A model generated the notes under the pieces. It searched no databases. It saw nothing but the letters and a program-made list of their open reading frames with translations, and was not told where the DNA came from. Of a stretch of 64,000 nucleotides of DNA, positions 1 to 39,002 are shown in pieces. This DNA comes from Hypomyces perniciosus (Eukaryota > Ascomycota > Sordariomycetes > Hypocreales > Hypocreaceae), in assembly GCA_008477525.1 (NCBI GenBank), contig SPDT01000004.1, forward strand, positions 248,001 through 312,000, read 5' to 3'. The translations under genes were made by a program, and so were the position numbers. Numbering within the stretch: position 1 is the stretch's first letter; every line of letters starts with the position of its first letter.

Positions 1-3000
1 TACAATACATAGCTTTAATAGGAATACTAGAAATAATTATTTATAATTTTATATGTTTCTATTAACCTTATACCTATTAATAGGCTTATTAAAGCTTTAC
101 TATAATAGCGCTTTAAATACTTTAAAGTATTATTAAACTTAGCAGATATATAGTTAGTGGAATAAAATATATAAAAATATAGGAAACTAGTTAATTTTAG
201 CCTATAGGCTATATACTATAAGGGGTATATTTTATTACTGCAATAACTATTCTCTAAAAACTTTCTAGCCTTTACGCGCCTATATGCAAAAGGCATTATT
301 ATTATTATTATTATTACTACTATTTAAAGCAGCAGCCTCTTTAAAGTAAACTAAGTTCTCCTTCTTTAATAAATTAAATTAAAGGTATAATGCCTTTTTA
401 TACTGAGTTGCTATTTAATTATATAAGCTTATAAATATATAAAGAAAAGAGAGTATATTTATTTAATTATCTTTTTTATTTATAGCTTAAAAAAGCCAGT
501 ATATAATTTATATAAGCATTAAATAACTATATAGTATATAATTAAATTAAATAATATAAATAAATTATAAAGGAGTTTATTAAAAGGTATATTAGTAATT
601 ACTATTAAAGTAAACAGTATACTGCTAAAAGTAGGCGATAGAAATATATTAAGAGAAGTCTTTTTTACTGGTAATTGCTAACTTTAAGTCACTTTTATAA
701 AAAAGGGATAATAGTATAGTAGTAGTAGGGGCAGGAGCAGTAGCGGTAGTAGAGGTAGAAGTGGGAGCAGTTATTAAAGTAGCAGCAGCAGCAGTAATAA
801 AGGCAGGGGCTAGAGCAGAAGCAATAGCTGCTTTAACAGTAAGGCGTGCTTTATAAGCAGCTGTAATGGCAGTAGTATAGCGCGCGTTAAGAGCGGCAAA
901 AGCTGCAATATCCTTTAACTAGGCCAGACTAGCTGGCGCAGGAGTAGGAGCTAGAGTAGGAGCTGGTGCAGGAGTAGGAGCAGTAATAGGTATAGCCGCT
1001 TAGCCAGCTAAGCGATTAATACCGCGATAAGCTACCTTTAGGGGGCGACTATAACTATACTTTATTAATAAAGTATTTTTCTCTTGCAATTTCGCTATTA
1101 GCTAATAAATATATAGTGTAAAAGGAATTAGTTAAAAGTGTAATATTTATAGCAGGAGCTATACTGCTATTGCTGTTAATATTAATATTGATATTGTTAT
1201 TAATATTAATAATAATAATGTTAATAATTAAAGAAAAAGAGCGAGAAATAAGGCTGGGGGGCAGTTAATATACTTATTCTAGCTATTTAGGACCTATTTA
1301 CCTACTTAAAAGCTTTATTATTTAATTTCCTATTATTATAGAATAATAATAGCTATAGCGCTTATATTCTTTTTACCTCTATAATAGAATATCGATATAT
1401 ATTTATAATAAAGAGCTTTTAATTAAATAAAGATACTCTAGAAGCGCGGCCAGTTAGTTATAATACTATAGATAAGTTAAAGTAGCAGTTAATAAAGTAT
1501 TAGGAATAGCTTTATTAACTGGGGGGTATATTAGGTTAAGTAGGCCGGGGCCTTACTGTTTATTAGCGCTAGGGAGCTCTTATCTGCTATATAAGTAAAT
1601 ATAAGCTGATATATATATTATATAAGCAATATATTAGACTATGTAGGCGCTTATAAAGCGCCTGTATACAGCTTCTTCTTTATGTTAGCTATATATATAT
1701 AGCGAGGCCACTACGGTATATTCTCTTTTATAGAATCAAGCTTCGTTTCCTATCTCTCTATACTCTATATAGCTGTGCCGCGCTCCGCCACAATAGTTTT
1801 TCCTGCAATTCTATAATTAATAGTAATAAAGTTTTGTTTTTAATAGTGGCTTTATTAAGCTGTTAATAGTCTATAATTAACTGCAGTTTGCCCCCTTTTT
1901 TAATATAAATATAAATAGATAGCCTGCTTCCAATAAAAAAGGTTGGATATACTTTTTAGCTAGTATATCGCTTAAATAGTTATATAGACTTTTAAGCTCT
2001 TTTTCGTTTAGATTATACATTTTATAAAAGGTAGTATTTATATTATTTTTAAGCTTAATTATATAGTCCTATTAACTATATTCTAGTAGTTTAGTATTAA
2101 GTGTTTCTTTAAATAATTTATTATACTTTTAGTATTTTTGAAAGATATTTTGCAGTTATTTTAATAATACTGCTATTTTAAGGCCTTTTCTTTTAAGCAT
2201 TTTATTAATATTATTAAATGCTTTCTGTAAAAAAGTAATTATTTTTTAGATTTATTTATCTTTTTTTTACTTTATTTAAGTTTTATTTTTAGATAGATTG
2301 TTTCTATAATTAAATTAAAGGTAATTTTTTTAATTCTGTTTTTTAATATATTTAGGGGTTCTATATAGGATTTCCGCCCTGCAGCTAAAGCCTTTTTAAT
2401 AGTTTTAATTACTAAAGAAACTTTACTATCACGCTAATAAAGCTAGCCTTTTTCCTAGTTAATATTAAAGTTATTGTATTTTAAATAAAGATAACTAAGA
2501 ATAATATTATATTTATTAATATTCGCTATATTATAAAGAACTACTCCTTTATATTTACCGATTTTAATTTTAAGATTATTAATCTTTCACTTAACTTATC
2601 TATTATTATATATAAAGGCTCCTTTTTCTATTTAATAAAGTTGGTATAGTTTAGTTTTCTTTTTTTAAAGTAACTGTAAGCGATTTATAGTTATAGGTAT
2701 AATAAAATTGCCTATTGCTTTACTGTCTCTTAATATATATAGCCGATATTCTTTAACTATTGTCTTTGATTTAAAATATAATGAATTTTTATTGTTATTT
2801 TTATTATTTAATATTTTAAGAGATATAATTTATTAGTTATTACTTTATAGCTGTTGTATAGGTAATATTAATTGATTTTTAATTCTTTTTTTTATATAGA
2901 TTTTGCAGTTAATTAAGGTTCTTTAAAGTAAATACTACCTTTTCTTATTATAGGCAGTTCTTTTATAGGTAATAAAGTTAAACTAGTTTCAGTGCAGCTC

Positions 3001-4044
3001 TTTTATAATTTAATTAATCTTTTTGTTTTTTAAAGTAGGTTTATATTTTATATACTTGTATATTTACTATTTTAAAGGTTTTCCTATAAGTGGGTAATAT
3101 ATTTATCTTTTTAATAGTATATATAGTTTAGTAATAAATATAAGGTATTATTAGCTTATTATAAATACTAATGCTGTAATTTATTTTACTTATATATAAT
3201 ATACTTTAGGCTATTGCACTTTAAATAGTATTATCGATTATATTTAAACCTTCTATTATAGCAGAAATACTATTTTATTAACTTCTTTTAGCACTAAATA
3301 TAGTATCCTTTAAACTTATATCCTTTAAGTTTTTATAGCTAATAATATTCCTTTAGGGTTTTAGTATTTGGTTTAATAATAATAATTTTAAGGTTTTAAT
3401 ACTATATAGTTATAATTTATTCTTTAAAAGCGTTATTATCTTATATTTATTTTATAGGGTAGAATAGGATTTTACTTAATAATATATTATATTTTACTTT
3501 CTCTTAAAAGTATATTATATACCTGTATATAATATAAGTAACTTAAGATATCGTATAGTATTTTTTATAAGTGGGGTTATTTGCAGTATAGTCTCTTTAT
3601 ATATAAAAGTATATAGGTTCCGCTTATATAGTTAAAGCAGCTAGGATAGCTTTAACAGCTATTTTATTATTAACTTTATCTTATATATAAAGCTATTTAT
3701 ATAGGTATAGGTTCAATTTATTTTATTATATACCTATAGTAACTTTTTTAATTAAGTTTAAGTAGTATTTATTTTACCTTTAAGGTTACTGTTTATAGGT
3801 AATATATTTTCTGGTTTTAAAGGTATAGTATTATATAGCAGTAATCTATATTATAAAGGGTTATTTTTATTTTTATTGTTAAAGTCGCTGCTGCTAGTTT
3901 ATTTTTTATTATATATAGTAATTTAGTTAAAATATTAATAGTTGATTATAGTAACTATTTATTTATTTAAGATATTATTATCTTTATTTAAGTTTATAAA
4001 ATTAAAGTTTAGGTTTTATTTTATTAAATTATCTAGGAGTAGTA
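1..4044 (-). mobile_element. RIP-decayed Ty3/gypsy retroelement (partial)
   Basis: Very AT-rich DNA with no usable reading frame. Read on the minus strand around 1960-1800 it gives a degraded gypsy reverse-transcriptase core: an I-Y-I-K-K-G-G-K-L-Q-L-I-I-D-Y string followed by an L-N-K-A-T-I-K-N block, which matches the family pattern FVKKKDG-LRLC-DYR-LN--TIKN-YPLP. Further downstream on the same strand (about 1770-1690) there is a relic of the following catalytic block. Stops in this frame are TAA/TAG, as expected from CAA/CAG hit by C-to-T. LTRs were not located. The plasmid at 4045 is inserted at the right edge of this DNA. The gypsy assignment rests on the RT string only. Confidence 0.6.
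720..1000 (-). repeat. low-complexity Ala/Pro-coding tract
   Basis: A run of GCAGTAG/GGAGCAG-type triplets. On the minus strand (about 1005-915) it reads as a P-T-P-A-P-A-P-T-L-A-P-T-P-A-P-A type tract. It is less AT-rich than its surroundings and probably is a relic coding low-complexity segment of a transposon protein. No function is assigned. Confidence 0.5.
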
Positions 4045-4502
4045 TATATATTACCCTATAGCCTAATTTATTTAGATACTACTAATACTTTTAATTATTT
4101 TCAAATTTAAAATACATAATTTCTGAAATCTTATTTTTACACTACACCTTTATAAAGAGTTATACATTATAATAATCTTTATTATAAAGGCTTTATATAG
4201 CTACTGTATAGTATTCATTTAAACTATAACAATAAAATTTATTTTACAACTTTTTATTTCTAAAACCGTTAATCTAAAACGTAATATATCCATTATATTT
4301 AATATAATTGAGATATTAATTAATTGTATTTTATATAATATTTTCTCTTTAACTATAGTAACTAAAGGTATAGGTCTACAGGGAGGTTTATTATTAAATA
4401 CAATTCTAAAATTTAATACTAAAACTATTAAATTTTTACTAAGAGTTGCAAACTCTATATATAATGCTTACTTTCCTACTTATTAAGTAAGAAAATTTTC
4501 AA
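4045..4502 (+). repeat. left terminal inverted repeat of the plasmid (458 bp)
   Basis: Matches the reverse complement of 10144-10601 over its full length without indels: position x pairs with 14646-x. The outermost shared bases are tatatattaccc. Differences from the other arm are mostly C/T and G/A transitions, for example TAA at 4484-4486 where the right arm has CAA. In linear plasmids the TIR carries the replication origin and the 5' end is bound by a terminal protein (family knowledge). The DNA polymerase frame is already open inside this repeat. Confidence 0.9.
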
Positions 4503-7500
4503 CGAGCTTACTTTCCTTTAAGAATAATCTTAATAATGTATTAATAGAAAAATATAAAGAAATGCAAGATAAATTTAAGGTTTATAAAATAAATAATAAA
4601 GGTTAATATTCTTTTTATTACTTAGATGATAATATGGTTATTGATTCTTTTGTTTTATAGAAAGCTTTAGAATTATTCTATCTATATTACAATTATAATT
4701 TTAATATTGAACATTTTAATATTATGTTTTATATTAAGTTCCCTAATAGTGATGTAAGATCTTGTTTTACTGTTCAAATTGCTAGTAATAAAGAGTTGGA
4801 TAAACTTTTTGACATTTTAGCTTATATTTTTACTTTTAAAGAGATCTCAGGAAAAGTATCTAAAGATCATAACATGGATACATGTTTTGTAAATAATTTA
4901 CCTAAAGGTAACATATTTTTTAACTTTAAACCTTTAAAAAATGTTGAATTTACAAAATATGAAAATATAATAGATCAAGAAGAAAATATTCAAAACCTTA
5001 AATATGTAGAAGGTAAAGACTACATAAAAGATTTTAAATATAGAAATGCATCAATACCGGCATATATAGATTTAACAGCATGACCAAATATAAATTTTTC
5101 ACCCAATAATACTAATACTCATTCTACTATTAATGTTAAGTTAAACGATAATAAAAGTTATATTATAGATTTAATCATTAATATAGGTGAAAATAGCTAT
5201 TACGTAACAGCAAGAAATAAGGATAAAATTCTATATACTTTTATTGATGAAACTACAAGTGATGAAAAAGATTATACTAAATTTAAAGGAATTATTAACG
5301 AAAATGGCATTAAAAAGTATATTATTTTAATTTAGGTAGAGTAGCTTTTTATACAATTGTTAGAAAGACTAGTTTTATTACAAAGACTAGTAAAGATATA
5401 ATTAACTTAAATAAACCCAGAATATTAACTTTGGATATTGAAACAAGAGTTAATAAAGATAATTATATGATACCTGTCTGTATATCTATTTATAATGGTG
5501 TAAAAGCTAATATTTATTTATTTAATAAGGATTCTTGAGAGGTAGATATAATTAAAGCACTTAAGAGTATATTAATAAGAAAATATGATTCTTATAGAGT
5601 ATATGTACATAATTTTTCATATTTTAATAGCATATTTATGCTTGATGCTTTATCAAAATTAAGTGAAATTAAAATTCTTATAAGAGATAATAAAATTCTG
5701 AAATTAGCTTTAAAATTTCAAACTGAAGGTGAAAGAGAATATAGAATATATTTCCAAGATTCATTACTTATATTACCTGATTCTTTAAATAAACTATCAA
5801 AAAGTTTTAATATCGAAAATAAAAACTTTCCTTTGTCCAGCGAAACGTAGCGAACAGGGTCTAGCCCCCTGGCTCCTACCGACCTGTTGCCCAGACGAGG
5901 CTGTTGTACCTAGATACAGAGTGGTCGTAAATAGTAATAAAAAAAAAAAATATCGAAAATAAAAAGTTAATATTTCCTTTAAAGTTTTTAAATAAAGAAT
6001 ATATATCTTGAGAATATGCAGGAACAGTGCCAGAATATAAATATTTTTATAATAACGATTTATCTATTAAAGATTATAATAACTATTATAAGCAATATAA
6101 AATTTGAAAATTAAAAGATGAATTAATCAAATATTGTGAACAAGATACTATAGCTTTATATTAAATCATTATTAAATTTCAAAAAGAGATTTATGAATTA
6201 TTTAATGTAGATATTACAAAACATCCAACTTTACCTTTATTAGCTTTTAATATTTATAGATCAAACTTTCTGAGTTTATCCAAATTGATACCAAATGTTC
6301 TTTCTAAGATGCATTTTTCTATTCAACAAAGTTATTTTGGAGGTATTACAGAAACATATAAAGCTTCAGGTAAAGATATTCATTCATATGACGTAAATTC
6401 TTTATACCCTTCATCTATGGCCAAATTTCCTATGCCTGTAGGTACACCAATATTTTTTAGCGGTAATGTTCATGAATATATTGAAAATCCTTTTGGTTTC
6501 TTTAAAGTTAAGGTTATTGCCCCAGATTCTATAAATAAACCTTTTTTACCTAAGAAACATAATACACCAAGTGGAAAAAGAATTATTTTCCCAGTTGGAG
6601 AATGAGAGGGTTGATATTTTAGCGAAGAAATTAAAAATGCTGAAAATTTAGGTTATAAATTTGAGGTTTTAGAAGGTTATTTATTTGAAAAGGCATTTAT
6701 ATTTAAAGAATTTATTGAAAAATTATATACTATAAAATCTAAATCTGATTCATCTGATCCAAAATATTACATTGCAAAACTTCTTATAAAACTCTTTATA
6801 TGGGAGATTTGGATTAAACCCTATTGTAGATGAAGTAAAAGTTTTATCCGCTGATGAAGGAGATAAAATAATTATGAATCAAACAAACGTTAAAGCTATA
6901 CCATTAAATAGTGGTAAAGTTGTAGTTTCATATACAAAAAGTGATACTGAAAGTAATATAAAAAATATTTCTGTACCTATTTCTTCAGCTATAGCAGCAT
7001 ATTCTAAAATAACAATGTCTGAATATATGACTAAATATAGTGATCATCTTCATGCTATAGATACTGATGGAATCAAGGTTGATTGTGAACTTTTACCAGA
7101 TGAAATAGATAGTAAAACTTTAGGTAAAATGAAGTATGAATTCACTTTCAAAGAAGCTGTTTTCCCAGCACCTAAAGTTTACTGAGGATTATTATCTAAA
7201 GCTTATAAAAATTATACTAATGAATTAGTAAAAATAAAAGGATTAAAAAATCCTTTACCTTATTTTATATTTAAATCAATTATTAATAAACATGTTGTAT
7301 TAAAAGTTAAACAAGAAAAATGAAAAAGAGATTTATCAAAGTCAACTATCATAGTTTCTAATGGACCATACTCACTTAGATTAACAGAAAATAAACGTGA
7401 ATTAATATTTGATAATTTTGGTAATTTTATTGATAGTTTACCTTTATATTTAAAAAATGGAAACATTGAAAATAGAAACCCTCAATTAGTGTATTATCTT

Positions 7501-7521
7501 TCTGAACCGAAGAAAATTTAA
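4232..7521 (+). pseudogene. plasmid family-B DNA polymerase, mitochondrial code, disrupted
   Basis: Protein-primed family-B DNA polymerase that would replicate the linear plasmid inside mitochondria. Motifs in order: exonuclease I T-L-D-I-E-T-R near 5428; exonuclease II V-H-N-F-S-Y-F-N near 5610; exonuclease III Y-C-E-Q-D-T-I-A-L near 6132; polymerase A S-Y-D-V-N-S-L-Y-P-S near 6381; motif B N-S-L-Y-G-R-F-G near 6792; motif C I-D-T-D-G near 7057. TGA occurs in frame where Trp fits (5081, 5536, 6603, 7183, 7321). The frame is open back into the TIR to about 4226-4232, where ATA may be a mutated ATG, so the true start is uncertain. Lesions: TAA 4484, TAA 4604, TAG 4658, TAA 6162 (all explainable as CAA/CAG with C-to-T), single-base frameshifts near 5325 and 6790 in homopolymers, and a retroposon at 5826. 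The native stop is TAA 7519-7521. It is non-functional, and unreadable by nuclear translation anyway. Confidence 0.88.
5826..5950 (+). mobile_element. short poly(A)-tailed retroposon (SINE-like or truncated LINE)
   Basis: About 125 bp of GC-rich sequence that breaks the otherwise AT-rich polymerase gene. It ends in a 12-13-base A run. The 15-mer tatcgaaaataaaaa lies on both sides (5811-5825 and 5951-5965), a target-site duplication typical of LINE-machinery retroposition. Removing the insert and one copy restores the polymerase frame. An internal ggtctagcccc resembles a Pol III B box only weakly, so tRNA ancestry is a guess. The sequence shows no RIP, which fits its short length. No other copy was noticed in the window. 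Confidence 0.75.
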
Positions 7522-7734
7522 CACTTAATTTTAATTTAATAATTATAATTTATTTATAACTTATTATACTGTTTTCTCTTAATATTTTATTAGGAGAAAG
7601 CAGGCGAGTTAACAAATATTTTTATATTGTATGGTCGCCTACTCCCTAATTAATAATTATTACCTCCCACCCTCCCTATATATTTATATTAAAATGTGTA
7701 TTTCACTACCTATTAAATGATTATGTATTAAATA
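7522..7734. other. spacer between converging plasmid genes
   Basis: A 213-bp spacer between the DNA polymerase stop (7521) and the RNA polymerase stop (7735). It contains a GC-richer stretch with a short inverted repeat (aggcga at 7602-7607 and tcgcct at 7635-7640) and a pyrimidine-rich cctcccaccctccc tract. It could be a two-way terminator or processing site; this is inference only. Confidence 0.35.
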
Positions 7735-10420
7735 TTATAATATCATATATCTACCATTGATTTTTTTAAGATCTAAAAATCCTTTTTCAGGAAGTACAGG
7801 TAAAGGTAAATAATTATATCTATTATTTTTATTTTTAATTTTTACATTATATAAGCCATCTTTTTAAATAATTGGAACTTTGTAATCATTTAGACTATTA
7901 ATTAATCTATCATTAATTTTAATTAAGAAATCCTCTATACTATATAAGTTAATAAATTTTTCTCTAACTATATTTGATAGTTCCAATATATCATTAGGAT
8001 GAGTTCCAAAGCAATCATGTACTGTAAGTATATACTCACCTTTATTTTTTCATGACAATATAACATCCATTAAATGTGAAGCATCCATTGAATTAATTAT
8101 ATTAGGTATTATAGCTCGTACTTCTGCTCTTGTATCTTTTTCATTTAATCACTTTCTTAAAACACCTGTTCTATTTTTACCTAATAAGTTTAGTGTAACT
8201 TTTTGTACTTTTGAAAGGTTATAGTGTTGTGTTAAAACTAATCCATTAGGTGTTGATCAAGTAATTGGCAAATTAAGTTTAACTAAAATTTTAGCCATAT
8301 TTGACAGATATTTATAAACAGTGTGTAAAGCTGGATATTGATTAAATATATTATTACTAACAATTTCTCCTAATTTTTCTACTTCAAAAGTATTTAATAT
8401 TACAAAACCATCAATATTTGAAGATGGAACACGATAATCGTAAACAATAATTTCCTTTCCTTTATGTATTATTTTCTTCTCGATATTTTCCAAAATAGAT
8501 TTTAATTGTTCAACAATACCATAAGTAGTAACACTGTAAGATTTAGTCATGATAACAGATTTAAGTTCTTTTCTAGTAAGCTTTATATCTTTAAATTTAT
8601 AATTATTAGAATCAAGTTTTCATGAATCATTCATAGCTTTATTAATCTGCGGTATAACTGAACTATAAAAATCATTAACAATCTCATGATTTTTAGTGTT
8701 TATAAGATTAACTTGTTCAGCTAAGTTTTGGTCAAGAAGCATAGCTGCAAAATGTTGAACACCACTACATGTAGCATCTAAGAAAATTGGTAATGAAACT
8801 TTATAGTTAGGATTATCTTTTATCTGTCTTATAACTAAACAAAAAGCCACAAATAATGATGGAGATTCAGCTTTTAAAATGAAAGTTTTATCCATTAAGT
8901 ATATTCTATCTAAATTATTTATAACTCATTCATAATGTTTTTCAAAAGTGTTTTTTGCCATATTATTTTCATTAAAACAATTAGCACCATAAATATATAA
9001 GTAATATTTACCTTGTTCAGTTAATATTTTACCTTTATTCAAATTAATAAGAGACAAAGAGAATTCATTACCTTGATAATCTAAATAAAAAGATCTCGTG
9101 TAAATTCTACCTCTTTAATCAATATTTAGATTTAAATAAAACGAGTTATTTCAAACAAGCGCGCTGTTTCTAATAAAATATAATTATCTATAAAACTATT
9201 ACCATTCTTTTCTTTATAATATTCTAATAAGAAGGCTCCCTCGTTATCCAAATAATTTAAAACATTATTATTAACTTTGAAATCTAAACTATTTAGATAG
9301 TTCACAACATTATATATGTTCTCATTAAGAGAAATATTGTAACTATGTTGACTAGATCCAGTAACCAACCCCTCTTGATAATCTTGCTCTCTATTTAATA
9401 AAAAACCACTGTATTCTCCTTCTCCTCATTTTAAAGGTTTAGTTAGCATAGGTAAAGACTGAGGTGTAATCATATAATTATTACGTAAATCATTTTCATA
9501 TTCTTTATTTAATATAATTCTATTCTGATTATCATTAAAAACTCTAATGAAAACTGGGTTAAGTTGAGTTGTAAATAATTCAATAACGATGTTACCCAAT
9601 TTTAAATAAAAAACTGTATCTAAACTAAAAGAATCTTCAAATTCTTTATAAGAGTTATAATCTTTTTTATAATTATCTTTATAAATTTGCATACATATAT
9701 TTTTCCTATAATAACAGCAATATTAGTTTCACCCGATTTATGATAATAGTGTAAAATGTAAGTAAAAGCAATTATAATATTTTTATCTTTAATTAAAAAT
9801 CCCTTAAAGCTTTTAAATGATCTAGATAAAATACCTTTTTTATTATATAATTCTAAAATTTCTAATACTTTAACAAATATCTTTCTTTCATTCTTAAATA
9901 AATGCAAATGTAATTTAAAAGCATCCCTAGCTATATTTATTCATTTCTCTTCAATTTTATATCAAGCCAATTAATTTTTATTTTTATTTTCAGTTAAAAC
10001 TTTGTCTAATTTATATAAAAATACATTGAATTTATTATTTTTAACTTTATTATTATTATTGTTTAAAGTAGAATACCTGTAAATATTGTTAATTTTACTG
10101 TGATTATTTAATCAGTTAAAGACGTTATCCCCTCGCCCACTTATTGAAAATTTTCTTACTTGATAAGTAGGAAAGTAAGCATTGTATATAGAGCTTGCAA
10201 CTCTTAGTAAAAATTTAATAGTTTTAGTATTAAATTTTAGAATTATATTTAACAATAAACCTTTATATAGACCTATACCTTTAGTTACTATAGTTAAAGA
10301 GAAAATATTATATAAAATACAATCAATTAATATCTTAATTATATTAGCTATAATAGATATATTGTGTTTTAGATTGATGGTTTTAGAAATAAAAAGTTTT
10401 AAAATAAATTTTATACTTAT
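7735..10420 (-). pseudogene. plasmid phage-type RNA polymerase, mitochondrial code, disrupted
   Basis: Single-subunit RNA polymerase of the T7/mitochondrial type, which transcribes the plasmid in mitochondria. Read from high to low coordinates it shows R-G-R-I-Y near 9113, [13 protein letters not shown] at 8778-8740 (catalytic Asp motif), [19 protein letters not shown] at about 8577-8518 (O-helix Lys/Tyr region), and H-D-C-F-G-T-H near 8019-7999 (second catalytic Asp). In-frame TGA codons sit at Trp positions. The frame is open through the right TIR to about 10420, so the first part is encoded by the same repeat sequence as the polymerase N-terminus. Lesions: TAA at 9971-9973, 9115-9117 and 7864-7866 (transition-type), and frameshifts near 9690 and 9125-9145. 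The native stop is TAA (complement of 7735-7737). Confidence 0.88.
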
Positions 10421-10601
10421 AGTTTAAATTAATACTATTAAGTGGCTATATAAAGCCTTTATGATAAAGATTATATTAATGTATAACTCTTTATAAGGGT
10501 GTAGTATAAAAATAAGATTTTAGAAATTATATATTTTAAATTTGAAAATAATTAAAAGTATTGGTAGTATCTAAACAAATTAGGCTATAGGGTAATATAT
10601 A
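10144..10601 (-). repeat. right terminal inverted repeat of the plasmid (458 bp)
   Basis: Partner of 4045-4502. It carries its own set of transitions: where the left arm has ctacagggagg the right arm reads ctatataaagg on the matching strand, while elsewhere (CAA versus TAA) the right arm keeps the older base. The two arms have therefore been mutated independently after they stopped being homogenised by plasmid replication. Confidence 0.9.
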
Positions 10602-13433
10602 CTATAATAATTGAAGTTAATTTTTAAAGGATAAACTAAAGCTTATAGGTTGATATTAATAGAGAGGTTAAAGATAAATACTAAATAGGGTAATATAGTT
10701 ATAATTCTATAAAATAGGCGGTTTTAGTAAATATAATTGTTAATAACTGTTTAGGTAACTATATTAAATAAGTAATAAGCTAGTTGGATATATATAAAGG
10801 AGATATATAGTAAATGTATTTAGATTTTTTAGATTATAGCAATCCTAGTAATCCTGGATTATAGTTCTATATAGTAATCTTTTTTATAGGATCGCGCTTA
10901 TAGTTGCGATCTGTTAGTGATTGGCTAGAGGCTTTAATGTTCTGCCGTGATCCCGTGACTAGGTCTTCGATATGGTTGGGTTGTAACAAAAGGCTACTCC
11001 TATATACTAAACTATATACCTGCGCCTATAAAAAAGTAAAAATAACATTATATTCTGCTATTTTTTCTTCTTTTACCTACCTAAATATAATCCTATTTTA
11101 CTATAATTAAAGCATTACCTTTACTTTAAATCCTGCTCTAGAATTATTTAATTATATTTATTTTCCTCTTTTATTATAATATCCTCTTTAAAGCAAAACC
11201 TTTACTCTTTTATTTTGTTTTTCTAGCCTATAAAAAATAACTTAAAACTTTACTCCTTTACTATATTAGCTAAATAGTTTTAAGCTGTATTAAATACTTT
11301 TTAAAGTTAAATAAATATAACTTTACTATTAGTTTTATTATAAATTAATATAGCTATTAACTACTAGAAATCTACTTTCAATTTAACTAGTATATTAATA
11401 GCTATTTATAACTATTTATTAATATAACAATTAAATTAAGCGATAATTACTATAATAATTTTATATATATATCTAATTACAAGGCAGGTAAATAGCGCTT
11501 TTATATTAAAGATATTTATAATTTATTATATAACCTTTGCTATAAAAATAGGCATTAAACTTGAACTTAAAGGCAATACTTTATATAATTATAAAAGGAT
11601 TAGTAATTATTAGAGCAGCTTAAGTTAAAATTATAGTACTTTAAGATATATTTAAAGGTGCCCCTGCCTTTAATTAAATATTACTTTAAGCTTTTAATAT
11701 CCTTAATAGATTATAAAACTTCTAATACTTTATTAAAGGAAAATAAATTTTTATAAAATTAATTTATTTTCTTAAACATTAATACATTTATATTTTTAAT
11801 TAATACAGGTACCTTTACTACTTTAACTTTTATAGGGATAACTGTAAGCACTATATACAATAATTTCTTAACTTACAGGCCTATATAGTTAAGAAAGCTA
11901 GATTCCTTTATTTATTTAGCTTTTATATAGTCCTATATATAGAAAAACTTAAAGCTAATAAATATAGCTATTTAAGCCTATTCTAGATCTAATAAACACT
12001 TTATAGACTTATTAATATTAAACTTAATTAACTAATAGCGGCTTTAAATAACATCCTTATCTCCTTTAACTTTAAGAAGTATAGAATAAGTAACTTAAAG
12101 GGATTTAAACTTTTATTTTAAGATTAATACCAATACCTTTACTTTAAAAGTTTAGTTAAAAGCTATATAAATATAATTTAGGTTTTATATTAATTTATAA
12201 CAGTAAATACATTTATTATTATAAATTTTAAAATAATAGTAAAAGATATTCTGCCTTTTCTAATTAAGTATTATTTAATTAAATTAAATTAAGGCCAATA
12301 AGCACCCTTAAAAATAACTTATAGAAGGAATATAATAAAGATTAGCGACTAATACTTAACTAACCTTAAAGTACCAGTAAATAACCCTATAAAAGAAAAT
12401 AAATTAATTGATTATAATGATAGTTTTTCCTAATAACTAGTTATCCTCTTACCTTTATATAACCGAAAAGGACTATAATACTAATAGTTAATACCTAAAA
12501 TAACTTCCTATATTAACAATACCTATACTCTTAACTATATAGCCTAATTAATTACGGTAAAGGAAAAGAAAAGTATTTTCCTTTATATTATAAATAATGC
12601 TAGTAGTAAAAAGATAAAATAGTATTATTAGCCTTATAATATAAGCGGCGTTTTTTATAAAAACAGTTATAAAATTAGCGATTAAAAGTAAATTAATACG
12701 CTTTTTAATAACACTATAACCTCTTTAACCCCCGCTAACGGCAATAGCTATTACCGATAATATAGAAACTTAAATAAAAAGTTAACTTCCTTTAAAGAAA
12801 GTAATAGCTTTTATAATGCATTAAAGGATAATTAAAACTTAAAAGATAAAAGAGTTTTTAAAGTTACTGTAAAACCTAATTAAAAGGCAATTAAAAAAAA
12901 TAAAAAGCTTTTATAAAATTAAATAAAAGAGGTTAAGCTATAATAATAGGCTTTATAGCAGTAATAAAGAAAACTATAGTTTAATATTCCTAAATCTAAT
13001 AAATTATAGCCTTAAATATATATTATAGTTTAACCCTGCTTAAATTGATAAATAAGTCGGCTGAAGATAATATCTGAAAATAAGTTTATATATTTATATA
13101 AATAATAAAGTAAGTAATATCAAATAAACAGATAACTGCTTAAAATGCCTAGTAATAAAAAGATTAAAAGGAAAGGACTATTTAATTATAATAATTTTAA
13201 TAAAAGGAGAATAGTTTAATATAAATTAAATAAAAAGGAATTAATAGTATAGGCAGCAGTGATTTTACTTTTAATTTTTTTCTTTTTTCTTTTTAATACA
13301 CTTTTTTTTATTAATTTCCTATATTATTTATATTTTCCTGAAATATTATTATACTAGTATTACAGGGATTAATAGGATAAGCGTTTTATTAAAATTTACT
13401 TCTTTTATTCGCAAATATTTATAAAGAGGGTTT
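10602..13433. other. RIP-decayed AT-rich DNA, no recognisable gene
   Basis: About 2.8 kb of AT-rich sequence with TAA/TAG stops in all frames. No domain could be recognised. It ends at an LTR-like repeat (13434), so it may be the decayed body of a retroelement, or the continuation of the element at 1-4044 on the other side of the plasmid. It contains one repeat described separately (10694-10988). Confidence 0.5.
10694..10988 (+). repeat. dispersed repeat, long copy
   Basis: Shares its first ~55 bp with 14580-14635 and its last ~40 bp (ending cgatatggttgggttgtaac) with 14668-14708. The copy near 14.6 kb lacks the middle. This copy shows more A/T at shared positions in the first block, consistent with stronger RIP. 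The element class is unknown. Confidence 0.55.
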
Positions 13434-15271: not shown

Positions 15272-16738
15272 TCCATGACGGCAGAAACCCGTCAACTATA
15301 TACTACATTCTTAATGTAAGTGGCGCTTTTATCCATTTATCGAGTTTCATCAAGAGACTAATAAGCCTGTTTAGTATAAACTAAAAGTAGACTAAGTGCA
15401 ATATTTTATCGGCAGTGTAAGGGCAGCACTAAGGCTGGTAATAAATGGCTAACGAATATATAACACTACTTTAATAGTTTTTACAGCACTAATCTTTTTT
15501 AATTTACTATTTTTTACTACTCTTTTAACCGTATTCTATAGACCTATTTAAGGCTATTATTAACGTTGATTGACTTGTATACTATATTAGACTGTTGGTT
15601 TGTCGGTGGAAAACACTCACATATACACAAACACACAACTAGACTATATGAAGTTATAAATAAGACGTGCGGTAGCACGGCTAATAGGACCACGAACCGC
15701 AAGATACTGATACCCAAAGACACTGCGCATCATTCGATCATGGTACCGACAGCCAGAATTAACTTGCGCAGGCCTCCTCAATGCCTTTGTGGTCGTTAGA
15801 AGCAAGCCAGGGTCAGAAGGTGAACAGGGAAGAAGGTGAACAGGGAAGAAGGTTGATGTATTAAACTAAGACTATTTGTCTATGTTTTATAGCTAACTCC
15901 TAATATAGTTAGTACTGTATTAGGCAGTATTTATATATTAGCGAAGGTAGAAAGGAGAAAGAAATGTGCTTAGGACGAGCATGTACGTTAGTCCCGACAA
16001 CCTCTAAGTAGAAAATGAGAAATTGGGCGCGGAAACCGAGAGATTGCAAGCTGATAATAAAGCATTGCCAACTAGCAGTAAACAACTGCCCTTCTACCCA
16101 GTATGCAGACTGTTTCCATTCACCCCCCAAGGTTATTTTCAGAATGGTGGTGGTTATCCAGGAGAGGAGAGCTACTTAGTCGCCTACTAGCCACTAAGTC
16201 TTTCAAACAATATCGAGACTATATGTATCTTTAAAAACAATAGACCACTTCTATTCATACTGCCAGAGCCTGTAAATCGCTAAAATACCTGATCATTCAC
16301 CTTTTCCGGTCGTCCTTTCTGCCCCCGTGCCCCGATCTTTTCACATTCAGGTCGCTTATGTAAATTGATGGTGGTACTAGCATAGCTCTCATATCAATTT
16401 CTATAGACTGTAGTATCTCACTCATTTCGTTAGCTTTTAAATTAGGGACTACTCATGTCGTCAATCGTTTCCATCCTCTTCACACTATGCCGCAGGTCTC
16501 CAAGACATTATCATTATTATATGCTCTCTAATTGTGGTAACTTGTTCCCACACAGCCCTGCAAATCAATCTCAACTACAAAGACAATGCCTAAAATCCTG
16601 GATGTCAGGATGAGCAACATATAAGCAGCGCCTGAACTAGCATATATAAAGGCGGCGTTAGGATTAAGAAAAGGTAAATACATCAGTCGAAACCGAACAT
16701 GTAGGCTATAGGGACGAAAATAAAGATCTATATCTCTT
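15272..16738. other. intergenic DNA with minor repeats
   Basis: No supportable gene. From 15599 a stretch starting tgtcggtgg, with CA-rich text and an aaccgc segment, resembles the 3' end of the 390-400-bp LTR family in reverse orientation, apparently truncated. At 15815-15846 there are two exact copies of the 16-mer agaaggtgaacaggga. The rest is moderately AT-rich unique sequence downstream of the rhodanese gene. Confidence 0.4.
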
Positions 16739-16835
16739 GTGGAATCCGCGAACGGTTATTTGAACCGAATTCGCCCAAATACCCTGGCCAACCTGCAAGC
16801 AACAACTGGAAGCCCGTTTCAAAGCCAGTCATTCA

Positions 16836-17312
16836 TCAGGGTGTGCTTGCCTGGCTCTCCAAATACCGCTTCCAGCCCCAATAACCACCATCCAAATCCG
16901 TGGCCCTGGCCAGCCCCAACTTTTGCAACTCCCTCGCCGCCAGGGAACTCGTGTAACCCTCCGAACACGAGACAACGACCCGCGTATCGTAGCCAAATTC
17001 GTCCACAATCTCCTTGATACGGGACTCGCTTTGCGGATCCAGTCGCCACTCCAGCACGTTGCGCTCGATGATGCTGATGGTGTGTTTGGTGGTGGATGCG
17101 TCGAGGAGGGGCGCCTCGGGGAAGGCAAGGGCGCCTTCTCGCTCGCGCTGGGCAGCAGGCCGGATATCCACGATGTGGGTTGGGCCGCGAGATGAGGGGG
17201 ATTGCAGCTCCGTGAGGAGTTGGGAAGGGGTAATGCGGGTGAGGTGCGTGCGTGCTTCGTCAAGGATCTCGTTGATGCTTTTGGCACCAGTGGGAGGAGT
17301 GTGTTTTGACAT
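16836..17312 (-). CDS. single-domain rhodanese (sulfurtransferase-like protein)
   Basis: 158 residues from ATG 17312 (M-S-K-H-T-P-P). The frame is open to an upstream ATG at 17366, but that extension is unlike the family. The N-terminal S-I-N-E-I-L-D-E-A-R-T-H-L-T-R-I-T-P helix is followed by a rhodanese fold: V-D-I-R-P near 48-52, E-R-N-V-L-E-W-R near 83-90, and the active-site loop C-S-E-G-Y-T-S with Cys116, then D-G-G-Y-W-G-W. Rhodaneses carry sulfur as a Cys persulfide; the substrate cannot be told. The R-P-A-A-Q-R...R-N-V-L-E-W-R...V-V-V-S-C-S-E-G-Y-T-S-S-L-A-A pattern resembles actinobacterial stand-alone rhodaneses, so ancient transfer is possible. Intronless, probably cytosolic. It lies divergent to the TPR gene. 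A complete functional gene is likely. Confidence 0.88.
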   Translation of the reverse strand: MSKHTPPTGAKSINEILDEARTHLTRITPSQLLTELQSPSSRGPTHIVDIRPAAQREREGALAFPEAPLLDASTTKHTISIIERNVLEWRLDPQSESRIKEIVDEFGYDTRVVVSCSEGYTSSLAARELQKLGLARATDLDGGYWGWKRYLESQASTP

Positions 17313-17655
17313 TTCGAAATTTACCCAAGTCAAGTGACAGAGAGTTGCGAAGAGTGAAGAATACAAACTTCACGATAAGACGAGAGCTGAGTGGATGATG
17401 TACTCTGTAGAAAATGGTGTGATTTCTCACGTTAATTACGCCTTGTGGATCCTAGAGGTGCGCGGTTAATTGGTTTTTAGGCTTATCATTCAGTCATTTG
17501 CCATTTACCATCAGGTCCACTACTGATTGCGGCTGCTCAAGAGATGAAGGGAAAACGCTCATGGGGAGACGCTCTGAAGGATACCTAGGATCACATCAAT
17601 AGGTACAAGTAGACGGCTAACATATTGGAGAGAGAGTACACCCAATCAACCCCAG
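17313..17655. promoter_or_regulatory. shared divergent promoter region
   Basis: A 343-bp spacer between the start codons of the rhodanese (-) and TPR (+) genes, so it must hold both promoters. No clear TATA box or known operator could be recognised. Divergent sharing suggests possible co-regulation (inference). Confidence 0.5.
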
Positions 17656-19317
17656 ATGGAAGACTTTAACCTCGGCACGCATACTCGTGCCATTGCGACA
17701 ACATCTGCGGACGCGCAACGATGGTTCGACATGGGCCTCAACTGGTGCTTCGGCTTCAACCAAGAAGCTGGTTTGGCATGTTTCCTCAAAGCGCTCACGT
17801 TCGACCCGAACTGCCCCATGGCCCATTGGGGTGTGGCCTACGCTTACGGGCCTTTCTACAACTTGACATGGCACGAGTTCGGCGAGCAGGAGGCTGCAAC
17901 GACGATCCGGTTGGCGCGACAGCATTTAGCCCATGCGCGTGAGCATGCGACAGACCCGGCAGAGCGCGGCCTCGTCGACAGCCTCGCCGGCCGCTTCCTG
18001 GAGCCGCACCCAGTCGCCGCCGAAGCGTATGCCATGTGGGACAACGAGTACGCAGATCGTCTACGGGGCCTGCATCAACGATACCCTGATGACCACGACA
18101 TCATGGCTCTCTTCGTGGAAGCACTACTCACCCGCACAGTGCGCCGCCTGTTTGATGTGCGGACGGGTTTGCCCGCGCCTGGCTCCGCCGTGGTCGAAGC
18201 ATTAGCTGTCATCGAACGCTCCATCTCGCTGGCCAACGAGACAGGCCAGTCGCAACATGCCGCCATCCATCACCTGCACATTCACGCGCTGGAGATGTCC
18301 AACGAGCCAGAGAAGGCGCTGCCCTCGGCGGATATCCTCGCCACGCTCTGCCCGGATGCTGGACATTTGAACCATATGCCGGGGCACATCTACGCTTTGT
18401 GCGGCCGCTGGCAACAGGCGCACGAAGCAAGTAACCGGGCAATTCGAGCGGACGACCTCTATGCCAATGTTCCCGGAACGCCCAAGATAAGCTTCTACGT
18501 CCTCGCGCGATGCCACGATCTGCACCTGCAGATATTCGCCTGCATGTTTCTCGGCAAGTTCGCGCCTGCGCTGGCTGCGGCCGACAAAGTCCGGAGAATG
18601 CTGAGCGAGGACCTTTTACGGGTGCAGGGGCGGCCAAAGCTGGCCATGATGGCCGAGGCCTACTACAGCATGAGGTTGCATGTGCTCGTGCGCTTCGGCC
18701 GCTGGCTGGACATTGTCCAAGAACCCATGCCTAGCGATCCCGATCTGTATTTGGTGACGACGGCGATGCAACACTATGCGCGTGGCGTGGCCTTCGCCTC
18801 GCTGAAGCGCATCCCCGAGGCAGAAGAGGCGCGCATTGCCTTCGCCACAAGCCTAAAGAGCATCCCCGCCACTTGGCGTTACAACATGAACCCGGCGCAT
18901 ACAGTTCTAGCCGTGGGTGCCGCGATGCTGGATGGTGAACTGGCATACCACAAAGGCAACTATGCAGAGGCATTCGAGCATCTTCGTGAAGCTGTCCAAC
19001 GTGACGACGACTTGAATTACTGCGAGCCGTGGCCATGGATGCACCCGCCCCGGCATGCCCTGGGCGCGCTGCTGGCTGCACAGGGGCATTGGGCGGAAGC
19101 GGAGGAGGTCTACTACGACGACCTCGGTCTCAGCAATCGTGTCCAGCGCTGTGCGCAACATCCTGATAACGTATGGGCACTACAAGGGCTGGTGGAGTGC
19201 CTTGAACAACGTGACGAGCAACATCAATTGCCTGGGCTGCGGCAAAAGCTTGCGCTGGCTTTAGACCGGGCTGATGTGCCTATTGCCTCGTCTTGTATGT
19301 GTAGGAACGGACGATGA
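17656..19317 (+). CDS. TPR-repeat protein, bacterial-like
   Basis: 553 residues, a single uninterrupted exon, clearly GC-rich. The N-terminus M-E-D-F-N-L-G-T-H-T leads into A-Q-R-W-F-D-M-G-L-N-W-C-F-G-F-N (about 20-35) and F-L-K-A-L-T-F-D-P-N-C-P-M-A-H-W-G (about 43-59), a helical TPR pair. Conserved His-rich strings are H-H-L-H-I-H-A-L-E-M-S (205-215) and G-H-L-N-H-M-P-G-H-I-Y (236-246). Further TPR-like helices run to about 520, and the protein ends near S-C-M-C-R. The spacing of His and Cys suggests possible metal binding, but no enzyme activity is established for this family as far as I can tell. Closely similar long TPR proteins are common in bacteria, and the lack of introns fits transfer or great age. 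It sits between RIP-decayed regions yet shows no damage, implying a selected single-copy gene. Confidence 0.85.
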   Translation: MEDFNLGTHTRAIATTSADAQRWFDMGLNWCFGFNQEAGLACFLKALTFDPNCPMAHWGVAYAYGPFYNLTWHEFGEQEAATTIRLARQHLAHAREHATDPAERGLVDSLAGRFLEPHPVAAEAYAMWDNEYADRLRGLHQRYPDDHDIMALFVEALLTRTVRRLFDVRTGLPAPGSAVVEALAVIERSISLANETGQSQHAAIHHLHIHALEMSNEPEKALPSADILATLCPDAGHLNHMPGHIYALCGRWQQAHEASNRAIRADDLYANVPGTPKISFYVLARCHDLHLQIFACMFLGKFAPALAAADKVRRMLSEDLLRVQGRPKLAMMAEAYYSMRLHVLVRFGRWLDIVQEPMPSDPDLYLVTTAMQHYARGVAFASLKRIPEAEEARIAFATSLKSIPATWRYNMNPAHTVLAVGAAMLDGELAYHKGNYAEAFEHLREAVQRDDDLNYCEPWPWMHPPRHALGALLAAQGHWAEAEEVYYDDLGLSNRVQRCAQHPDNVWALQGLVECLEQRDEQHQLPGLRQKLALALDRADVPIASSCMCRNGR

Positions 19318-35334: not shown

Positions 35335-37591
35335 ATGCCGGACCCTGGGATTGCGCTGTTAACTACTACTTTCCGGGCTACTGAGCCTCACCGAATGAAG
35401 CGATTTCGTCAGGCTGTGTCCTGCCATAGCTGTCGAAAGCGCAAGTCAAAGTGCGATAGGCAGCATCCATGCGGCACCTGCGAGATGCGCAACCAGGGGG
35501 ACCGCTGCCGGTATGACTCGCCGTCAGATAAGGCTACTGCCAGGAGTCGCCAGGAGATGCAACTCAAGCTGAGTAGACTAGAGCAGATAGTGAGAGGCCT
35601 GGCAGAGCAAGGCCCCTCCGCTCTGGAAAATCACGGCGAGCACAGAGGCAAGGATGCAGAGGCGGTTGTCGGGGAGCCTCAGTTGGGCAATAGAATGGAA
35701 CCCGGTTATCACGGAGCGACCTCGTGGACTGCGTTGATGGAAAGCATCCATGATATTCAGGATATTTTAGCAGTTGAGGAAGAACCGGAGATGGCGGACG
35801 AGCTCGATATGGTGACGGTGATGTCGGACGTTGTACTGGAACGAGCTCCTCCTATTACCATTGAGGACGTCATTGACAGCCTGCCTCCACGGCAAGACTC
35901 GGACAGACTCATCTCGGCCTATTTCAATGCCAAGTTCCTAGCAGTCCCGTTTATTCACACCCATCATTTTAAGAGACGGTACGATGCCTTCTGGGACGAC
36001 CCGCCTTCTACCAGCTTCCTGTGGATCAGCATTTTGTTCTCCATCCTTGGCGTCGGGGCTATGGTGGCGAAAACGAAAAGTTCACATCATTTATCACCAT
36101 CACTCTCCAGGGCCGACTCGAGAATATATATGGCCCAGTCGGCGCGATGTCTTGTTGCGGGACAATACCTAAGGCGCAAACCCTTCTCTATTGAGGCTCT
36201 GCTCATGCATGCGCATTCTCGCAACGTACAAAAGCAGGACTCCGACTCGACACTTCTGGCTCTTTTCGGACTTACCGTCCGGCTTGCGCAACAACAGGGA
36301 TACCACCGTGACTCAACTAAGATATCAGGCAAGATCACCGCCTTTGATGCAGAGATGAGGCGACGGGTCTGGTTCATGATTCAGTCGGCAGACCTTCTGT
36401 TCTCCTTCCAGAATGGTATGCCCTCAGTCATCACTGAAGATTCGTGCGACGTTGACCATCCAACGAACCTTACCGACGATGACTTTGATGAAGACTCCGT
36501 CTGCTTACCTTCTCCCCGGTCTGTAAACGACCCTATACCCATTCTTGTCTGCATCCTCAAGTCCAAGCTCTGTCGCATTATGCGCCGTATTCTGCACCAA
36601 GCCGTCTCCGTTACCCCGACGCCGTACTCCGAAATACTCTCTCGTAATCACGAGCTCGAGGAGTGGCACACAGCCGTACCGCCATGCTTGCGCATCCGCT
36701 CCATCCGCAACACCGGCTTCACAGATCCGAACTACACTATCATGCACCGCCTAATGCTCGAGCTCCTGTACCGCAAGTGTCTCTGCATACTACATCGGCC
36801 ATACCTCACGGTTGATAAAGATAACGCTACGTACAATGCGTCGAGGCAGATTTGCAGGGAGTCAGCGTTAAAGATATTGGAAATGCAGGCCGAGCTGGAT
36901 CAGGAGACGAATCCTGGAAAGAGGATGTACGAGGATAGGTTCATGGTTTCGAGTCTGACGTTGCACCACTTCTTGCTTGCGGCCATGATTGCTTGCTTGG
37001 ATTTGAAGGAGTCGACGGATATCAGGTAAAGTTGGGAGGGGAGAGAAATAAGAGCCTTGCATTGCCTTAGTTGAGTGCTGACAACTTTCCCAGCATGGAA
37101 GACAGAGCGAGGCGCATCAGCATGCTGCGTACTGCATGCCATATCTGGTCATCGAGAAGCGGTCACTCTTCCGACGCCTTGCACGCTTCCCAGGTCCTCC
37201 GTGCGGTCCTCATTAGAGTCGAAAGCGCCAGTGGTTCATCTGACACTTCAGCATCGGTCTTGGATACCCCCAGAACAGGCACCAACGCTCAAAGCAACGA
37301 TCGACCGATGGAAGGCTTTTTGGATATGCCTGGGTCGTCGAGCGCTGTCGACGTGCCCACTTCCAATTCCGGCAGTGCTGTTCCTGGCATCAAATGCTCG
37401 ATCGATTTCAATGAGGCACCAGCTTCAGAGAACCTATTCAGTAACACTGATGTGCTACATTGGGTTCGTCCTGGGTTCATCACTTATTGTCATTTGTTGT
37501 GGAGGGAATTCAGGTGGCTAACATTTTTATCTAGTACTCCATCGACCAATACCTGCATTGCGACCTCCCAATGGAGGGATCCTTGGAATAG
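35335..37591 (+). CDS. Zn2Cys6 fungal transcription factor (three exons)
   Basis: Nuclear regulator with an N-terminal binuclear zinc cluster C-X2-C-X6-C-X5-C-X2-C-X8-C (Cys 30, 33, 40, 46, 49, 58), a short coiled coil at about 73-92, and a fungal_trans middle region (F-N-A-K-F-L-A-V-P-F-I-H near 205; R-R-R-V-W-F-M-I-Q near 343). Proposed structure: exon 1 35335-37025, intron 37026-37093 (GT...GCTGAC...CAG), exon 2 37094-37463, intron 37464-37534 (GT...GCTAAC...TAG), exon 3 37535-37591, giving 705 residues. The last intron is inferred because splicing yields a W-Y-S-I-D-Q-Y-L type end typical of the family; without it exon 2 would read on to a stop at 37607. A second in-frame ATG at 35395, just before the zinc cluster, is a possible start. 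The target genes are unknown; the secreted hydrolase downstream is the nearest neighbour. Confidence 0.87.
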
Positions 37592-38381
37592 GTCTTCTCA
37601 GAGATAGACACATGATTTAGCCTTCCATTTTGAAAACTCAATATTGCAAGACGCTTTCCAACAAAGGATACTTTGGTGAAAAAGCAGTACTCTAATGGGG
37701 ACAATGAGGGAACGAGTCATGCCGAGAGAAGGAGAAGGGGTACGCAGCTTGCTGCAGACAAGGAGGCGCATCTCTTAGAATTCGGGAAGCATTCACAGTT
37801 ACAAGCGCAGAATTGACGTCTCTGAATCTCAGGACTTAGCTATCATTTGTCACGCGCCTGCTTCTGCTGCCGGCTTTCATAACGCGACTTGCTAGTACAC
37901 GTATCAATTTCTTTAACTAGTCTATCCTTATATAATTCTCATCAATTGATTGACGCCGCTATCGTGTTGAGCTTGTCTGACAACCACCTTCTGACCACTC
38001 TGAGGGGAATTGGAAGGTCACACATCGCCGCTGAATTTCAACTAAACGATATAGCCGCGAGAGCTTTGTCAGAGTTTTTCGGTTACTCTAGCTGCTACTC
38101 TGAACGTAGGTCTTGAAAGCAGCAAGGCGCCAACGAGGATAATATAGATTATTGGTATGGATTTATCGGCGGTATGTTAAGCGTTAGTACGCCGGGCTTG
38201 GACGTCTTCATTTCGTGGCCGGCCGTTCGCATAAAATGGCCGCTGGCTTCTAGAAGCCTGTGTAGCTTCCTAAAGGCATAGAAATCTGGACATCTCAGGG
38301 TTCGCCCTAACCCTCTTTCTTATTAGCGAGTTATAGATACTTCGCGTATATTTGCCTGCTGTCACGGGCTACGACCGGTGT
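37592..38381. other. intergenic, 3' side of the transcription factor
   Basis: Probable 3' UTR followed by unique sequence of ordinary composition. Short open frames here have no recognisable features. Confidence 0.4.
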
Positions 38382-38593
38382 TGTTGAGCCGGCTCTGCCG
38401 GGCCCGGAGCTTCAGCCCCGGACCACTATTGTGTAGCTAGTCAAGTTTCGTCCAAGTTGCAACCCGGCAACTACATGGCCACGAGATCGAGGTACTTTTC
38501 CTTTGCCAGGCGCGATTATGCCCTCTTCGTTATCTCCTTCCCCTGTACTCGAGATACTAATTCCAGAATATACCTCTGGTGTGTAGTCCAACA
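38382..38593 (+). repeat. possible solo LTR
   Basis: A 212-bp stretch starting tgttgagcc and ending gtccaaca (TG...CA). It has a GC-rich inverted motif near the start (ccgggcccgg), and text such as ctccttcccctgtactcgag near the end as in many fungal copia LTRs. No target duplication was found (ggtgt versus cttga) and there is no second copy in the window, so the call is weak. Confidence 0.3.
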
Positions 38594-39002
38594 CTTGAAA
38601 AACATAGCAGAGAAAACTCTCCCGGTTAGATATATATCTCCTGTGAGTAGGTACAATTTGAAAGACATGGGGCCGGAAGGTGTCCTTCGGGTACGTATTG
38701 AGCTAACAGCATAACCGATAGCATGTATAAGACGATGTAGCTTTAGCCCTTCCAAACATAAGGTCACTAGCACGCAACAGGACGCGTATCCTGGCCTCTT
38801 TGCAAGAACTCTGGAGCAACTGGTCATTCTGTATTCTCCAAGCACCGAACCATACACTAGAGCTACAGAAGACTACTAAGCCTGGTTGTTGCCCTGAACG
38901 CCTAGTCCCTTTTTGCCTCCTGGAGGGGAAGGGATGAGGGTCTGCCCTTTAGGGGAACGCGGTGGCCGAAAAGTGCAACCGTCCATCAAGGCAAGAGCCA
39001 CT
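38594..39002. other. intergenic between the LTR-like stretch and the hydrolase
   Basis: Unique sequence of ordinary composition. It includes the 3' flank of the hydrolase gene. No gene is supported. Confidence 0.4.

Follow-up and report, generated by a model that had tools for sequence, protein, structure and literature searches.

A probable nuclear copy of a linear mitochondrial plasmid with RIP-type terminal repeats in Hypomyces perniciosus

Positions 4045 to 10601 of the window (the whole 64-kb stretch of DNA analysed, C16:248001-312000, which lies in a 4.78-Mb contig of the 44.0-Mb, 23-contig assembly) most likely hold a nuclear copy of a linear mitochondrial plasmid. The free form would have been captured at a chromosomal break, after which its ends were subjected to RIP, a retroposon later landed in it and it became inert, a reading to which we assign a probability of roughly 0.9. 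The case for a nuclear location goes beyond the assembly itself, since a retroposon with its target-site duplication lies inside the element, the terminal inverted repeats (TIRs) are of RIP type with a spared core, the flanks carry the retrotransposon TE1 and nuclear-type genes, and a piece of the same TIR occurs on a second contig, C14. The initial annotation had placed the element in a nuclear context and proposed a transfer from mitochondrion to nucleus; this interpretation is supported, the nuclear location by the retroposon and its duplication, by RIP confined to the TIRs, by TE1 at both assembled junctions and by the nuclear-type genes on the contig. The locus would clearly document the transfer of an entire selfish mitochondrial replicon into a chromosome. 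Linear mitochondrial plasmids in nuclear genomes have been reported before (Wei et al. 2023, PMC10583447), and the present locus is a well-marked case of a known kind; the accessible part of that paper describes a survey by similarity and phylogeny, in which single-locus junctions, RIP and insertions, all present here, were not seen.

The whole element, with both ends present, was delimited by its TIR pair and by Pfam matches. A repeat search of positions 3000-12000 recovered a 458-nt inverted repeat with arms at 4045-4502 (TIR-L, + strand) and 10144-10601 (TIR-R, - strand) that are 93% alike; at a minimum length of 30 nt and an exact seed of 14, that interval yielded no other inverted pair. 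The TIR is preceded by GTA both at the left end and in the C14 copy, so the plasmid may in fact reach 10602 on the right and 4042-4044 on the left. Between the TIRs lie two convergent genes, a family-B DNA polymerase gene (DPO) on the + strand and a phage-type RNA polymerase gene (RPO) on the - strand. Tryptophan is encoded 16 times by TGA and never by TGG in the seven polymerase segments counted, two of which overlap by 70 nt in different frames. Long TIRs at both ends, a family-B DNA polymerase, an opposed phage-type RNA polymerase and TGA read as tryptophan are together the traits of an invertron, and by these features 4045-10601 is identified as having originated as an invertron-type linear mitochondrial plasmid. 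The initial annotation had claimed both 458-bp TIRs, the two polymerases and the mitochondrial code, and each claim was borne out, the polymerases by the Pfam search that we ran; its description of a full invertron held for the ends and failed for the genes, which are broken by stops and frame changes and, in DPO, by an insert. The TIRs, the opposed DNA and RNA polymerases and the mitochondrial code recur in the known mitochondrial plasmids kalilo and pAL2-1 (PMC1864894) and maranhar (PMC9925561), as far as the accessible portions of these reports describe them; the copy in Hypomyces perniciosus differs from all three in being chromosomal, in its RIP-mutated ends and in having both genes broken. 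Among the matches listed for the plasmid query (best 40 of 153 candidates), the assembly held neither a free plasmid copy nor a second copy of the plasmid core.

Both polymerase genes are broken even when read in mitochondrial code. DPO (4226-7521, + strand) matched PF03175 in three blocks (E = 2.8e-68, 1.5e-17 and 3.8e-10), and all three matches of this profile in the genome fall within the element; two open reading frames of DPO matched it again in the Pfam scan. RPO (7834-10420, - strand) matched PF00940 with E values of 2.8e-64 in the genome profile search and 1.6e-67 in the Pfam scan of open reading frames; the only other PF00940 match in the genome was a 1438-aa open frame on C22, and the best sequence match of RPO among solved structures (PDB) was T7 RNA polymerase (E = 2.1e-30). 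The translations show DVNSLYP, NSLYGRFG and IDTDG in DPO and HDCFG in RPO, which we take to be catalytic motifs. Viral contigs gave no match for DPO and a single match in all, of 20 residues at 60% (L056), which was set aside. In DPO the retroposon insert (125 bp) is accompanied by in-frame stops and by changes of frame near 5.3-5.4 kb and near 6.78 kb, and the N-terminal frame of the gene contains three stops between 4226 and 4724, one within the TIR and two more ahead of the open reading frame at 4724. The frame of RPO breaks near 9.1 and 9.7 kb and is stopped within a D-x-RGR stretch, and a further stop at 7864-7866 precedes the end of the Pfam match, which reaches 7834. Since cytosolic ribosomes would terminate at TGA, and reading in mitochondrial code does not restore the frames, the nuclear copy is predicted to be inert.

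The kilobase to the left of the element (3045-4044, + strand) is an internal part of the LTR retrotransposon TE1 and has a RIP-type composition; it matches at least 39 other places at 83-87% (best 40 of 104 candidates). The copies inspected continue beyond the junction point, and two of them (L054 and L055) reach the right-flank sequence about 1.44 kb further on. That right-flank sequence, adjoining the plasmid end, is a TE1-family long terminal repeat at 10603-10840 (+ strand), recognised by LTR comparison; its start corresponds to base 41 of the C14 query, and 32 of the 41 other match rows (best 40 of 344 candidates) start at bases 37-42. Pairs of such LTRs that share an orientation are spaced 6.9-7.3 kb apart, for example at C3:5016788/5024136, C22:3737379/3744684 and C16:4443721/4451048, and we therefore regard TE1 as an LTR retrotransposon some 7.3 kb long. 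In the assembly, then, the plasmid sits between the internal part of TE1 and a TE1 LTR, both in one orientation, and the right junction coincides exactly with the LTR start. We propose that the plasmid left the mitochondrion as a free linear molecule and that, once in the nucleus, its two ends were joined to those of a chromosomal break within or next to TE1, an event after which some 1.44 kb of TE1 would be missing between the two junctions; no clear target duplication around the plasmid was seen at the junctions. A second repeat family, TE2, occupies 10999-11602 (+ strand, defined by its repeat copies), with its left end cut here. TE2 was considered as the 5' part of TE1 and rejected, a TE1 LTR being found within 1.5 kb at 0 of 11 other TE2 loci. 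The 150 bp that separate the TE1 LTR from TE2 (10841-10990) have a higher GC content (0.39) and a weak RIP index (0.26).

The exact LTR start at the right junction is a point against this reading, as a random break does not predict it. It may be that the right junction is secondary, a later TE1 or solo LTR having landed at the plasmid end, in which case the loss of 1.44 kb would be only apparent. We rate the chance of this as real, if somewhat short of even, and it is compatible with capture of the plasmid at a break. Retrotransposon insertion gives just such an exact join at the LTR start, C14 has a similar join within its TIR piece, and a search of the 9 kb of C16:243001-252044 did not turn up the 5' LTR that TE1 should have on the left; against these points, the insertion would have had to hit the plasmid exactly at its final base, and finding one family in one orientation on both sides would be a coincidence.

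Direct capture of the free plasmid in nuclear DNA was also weighed against a two-step route, in which the plasmid first integrated into mtDNA and was then carried to the nucleus within a NUMT. Such plasmids do integrate into mtDNA: relatives of pAL2-1 do so without need of homology, some of the sites lying between trna-met2 and nd2, according to the accessible part of PMC1864894, and NUMT-like stretches exist in the present genome. At this locus, however, both exact plasmid ends directly abut a nuclear retrotransposon. Flanks of mtDNA were rejected, given that ARAGORN found no tRNA and no Rfam family reached its gathering score in the 64-kb window, and that neither 1-kb flank had a match on the mtDNA contig among the matches listed (best 40 of 358 and best 40 of 104 candidates). 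Mitochondrial genes in the flanks, which the initial annotation had named as an observation that would speak against it, thus left no trace in these searches, and the two-step route is improbable. The Podospora insertions resemble the direct capture favoured here in that a whole plasmid was joined without homology, with mtDNA as the target there and the nucleus here, so far as the accessible text of PMC1864894 goes. NUMTs likewise are mitochondrial DNA in the nucleus, but here the source would be an independent replicon that brought its own ends, as opposed to a fragment of mtDNA. The window also encodes nuclear-type genes, namely a Zn2Cys6 transcription factor, a TPR protein, an alpha/beta hydrolase and a rhodanese. 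The Zn2Cys6 fungal transcription factor, at 35335-37029, forms a GC-normal island amid AT-rich blocks.

RIP is a nuclear, pre-meiotic process that requires duplications of some 400 bp. The composite RIP index was 0.86 for TIR-L, 0.72 for TIR-R and -0.03 for the core including the insert; it was 0.94-1.16 for the AT-rich repeats of the flanks, in agreement with the RIP-decayed repeat surroundings of the initial annotation, and -0.06 to 0.25 for seven pieces of mtDNA. In 400-bp windows the index drops near the inner edges of both TIRs (from 0.92 at 4001 to 0.05 at 4601 on the left, and from 0.81 at 10201 to -0.32 at 9601 on the right), and an index of 0.72 or more was reached by none of 5028 458-bp windows of the core (maximum 0.55) and by 1 of 548 in mtDNA. 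The index rises again in the 400-bp core windows at 5001 and 5201 (0.37 and 0.48), so that the core near 5.0-5.6 kb shows it to be noisy, and the value for the retroposon insert alone (2.72 over 129 bp) comes from a sequence too short and too A-rich to be given much weight. A 2.5-kb mtDNA block present in three copies that are 96-99.8% alike had an index of 0.21 in the one copy measured, and duplication inside mtDNA therefore does not yield the RIP signature.

The differences between the arms point the same way as the composition. Transitions account for 24 of the 34 differing sites, and 17 of the 24 lie in CpA/TpG context, whereas conserved G/C sites lie in that context in 8 of 69 cases (Fisher p = 1e-7). 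Of these 17 CpA/TpA or TpG/TpA transitions, 10 have the T/A state in the left arm and 7 have it in the right. When changes were polarised with nad2 of the mtDNA, a weak test that leans in this direction too, those of C-to-T type at CpA/TpG sites numbered 6 of 15 in the left arm, 8 of 15 in the right arm and 4 of 8 in the C14 piece, and other C/G sites had changed at 6 of 37, 9 of 37 and 7 of 19, respectively. It would appear that RIP recognised the two TIRs as a linked, inverted duplication and mutated them, leaving the single-copy core alone. If so, one insert amounts to a natural RIP experiment, in which a 458-bp inverted pair was marked and a 5.6-kb single-copy core was not, and this bears on the duplication length and the linkage that RIP senses. 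No report of RIP confined to the TIRs of a plasmid was found in the literature consulted, a body that lacked most subscription-journal papers.

The second nuclear mark is the poly(A)-tailed retroposon within DPO (5826-5950, + strand), which is bounded by two copies of a 15-bp target-site duplication at 5811-5825 and 5951-5965, each reading TATCGAAAATAAAAA. The insert is identical to genomic loci L008 and L009 over 115 of 115 bp. Both of these loci have extra 5' sequence, which is common to them and to L010, so that the copy in DPO is 5'-truncated; 5' truncation is frequent in reverse-transcribed elements. The genome contains at least 38 copies of the retroposon (38 of 43 rows for the plasmid query, best 40 of 153 candidates), and none was on the mtDNA contig C17 among these matches. 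The identity of the insert to other genomic copies suggests that the retroposon inserted recently, once the plasmid was nuclear; its arrival in DPO would then have followed the RIP of the ends. Elsewhere in the genome, within C8:3013114-3016291 (L050), a diverged copy of the retroposon (84%) lies about 0.5 kb from a NUMT that covers 428 bp of the nad2 region at 97.7%.

These internal marks also bear on whether the locus could be an assembly chimera, a free high-copy plasmid having been joined to a nuclear contig. Two stretches near the start of C8, each about 3.2 kb long, at 15551-18752 (L049) and 36577-39750 (L019), are 99.9% and 99.5% identical to mtDNA, respectively; they could be recent large NUMTs or a faulty assembly join, and if the latter, chimeras of organelle and nucleus elsewhere in the assembly become conceivable. 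A multicopy retroposon with its target-site duplication, RIP-type differences between the TIRs and broken polymerases would nevertheless be unexpected in a free replicating plasmid, and the core had no other copy among the matches listed (best 40 of 153 candidates), which together make a chimera highly improbable. That the element is instead a nuclear protein-primed transposon of the Polinton/Maverick type, with which it shares TIRs and a family-B polymerase (traits common to both according to the accessible part of PMC10583447), has a practically negligible probability, given that the seven open reading frames scanned with Pfam contained polymerase families only (four had no match) and no retroviral-type integrase, packaging ATPase or protease, that all 16 tryptophan codons counted are TGA, that the TIRs contain mitochondrial nad2 sequence and that no target duplication was seen.

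The nad2-like sequence of this mitochondrial plasmid lies at 4202-4403 in TIR-L (+ strand; place of the nad2 start codon 4226-4228) and at 10243-10443 in TIR-R (- strand; 10420-10418). Bases 158-359 of the TIR matched C17 at three places (79%, E about 1e-43) and C8 at two (79-80%). The C17 places are directly 3' of a tRNA-Met gene, at an open reading frame with nad2 similarity, residues 1-126 of which match NADH dehydrogenase subunit 2 (7zm7 chain 2, E = 7.8e-53). The start-codon place reads ATA in both arms, and the nad2-matching frame, counted from one codon ahead of it, is open for 87 codons on the left and 93 on the right, lengths equalled in any of the six frames by 3 of 500 and 0 of 500 dinucleotide shuffles, respectively. 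This frame is also the N-terminal frame of the polymerase on each side. On the right it is that of RPO and runs on without a stop to about 9974; on the left it is that of DPO and is interrupted by the three stops already described. Over 52 codons, identities with nad2 numbered 34 (left) and 31 (right), and dN/dS was 0.81 and 1.27; when the non-homologous tail was included (79 and 77 codons) the values were 1.1 and 1.13. Purifying selection on this piece was considered, but the values for the 52 codons do not support it, from which it follows that nad2 function itself was not retained.

Given the observed homology, place and frame, the plasmid would seem to have acquired the start region of nad2, which could have served both polymerases as a leader. 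The fuller proposal, that about 57 codons of the nad2 start were captured in the TIR before the plasmid was trapped in the nucleus and served as the common leader of both polymerases, is tentative, and we consider it rather unlikely. The capture itself has a precedent, since the Termitomyces plasmid pT123-4 reportedly contains the first 48 residues of nad2 (PMC9925561); to the extent that the source is accessible, the same part of the gene was captured there, with neither a position in the TIRs nor a frame shared with polymerases described for it. Should the proposal be true, the same segment in the Termitomyces plasmid would mean that plasmids recruit the nad2 start again and again, for use as an expression leader or membrane anchor, or that it lies at a hot spot of plasmid integration. 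The nad2-derived stretch thereby offers a testable idea, that plasmids borrow host expression signals. A TIR-borne nad2 leader was not encountered in the literature covered, from which most subscription-journal papers were missing. As for nad2 in the mtDNA itself, its 5' region with the adjacent tRNA-His and tRNA-Met is present in three copies on the 145-kb contig C17 (L046, L047 and L048), two direct and one inverted.

Plasmid-end sequence was found at one further place, C14:1177648-1177935 (L007 1501-1788), on a 2.0-Mb contig. It comprises the outer 288 nt of the plasmid TIR, 89-90% alike, starts with the same terminal bases and has a RIP index of 0.70. Its outer side borders DNA of ordinary GC content and its inner side exactly a TE1 LTR, and the 18 kb read around it held no other plasmid sequence beyond the TIR piece and the LTR. 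The arrangement suggests a second integration, or a fragment of one. About 350 nt beyond the C14 piece (L014 284-300) there is another TATATATTACCCTA, which resembles the plasmid terminus and may be there by chance.
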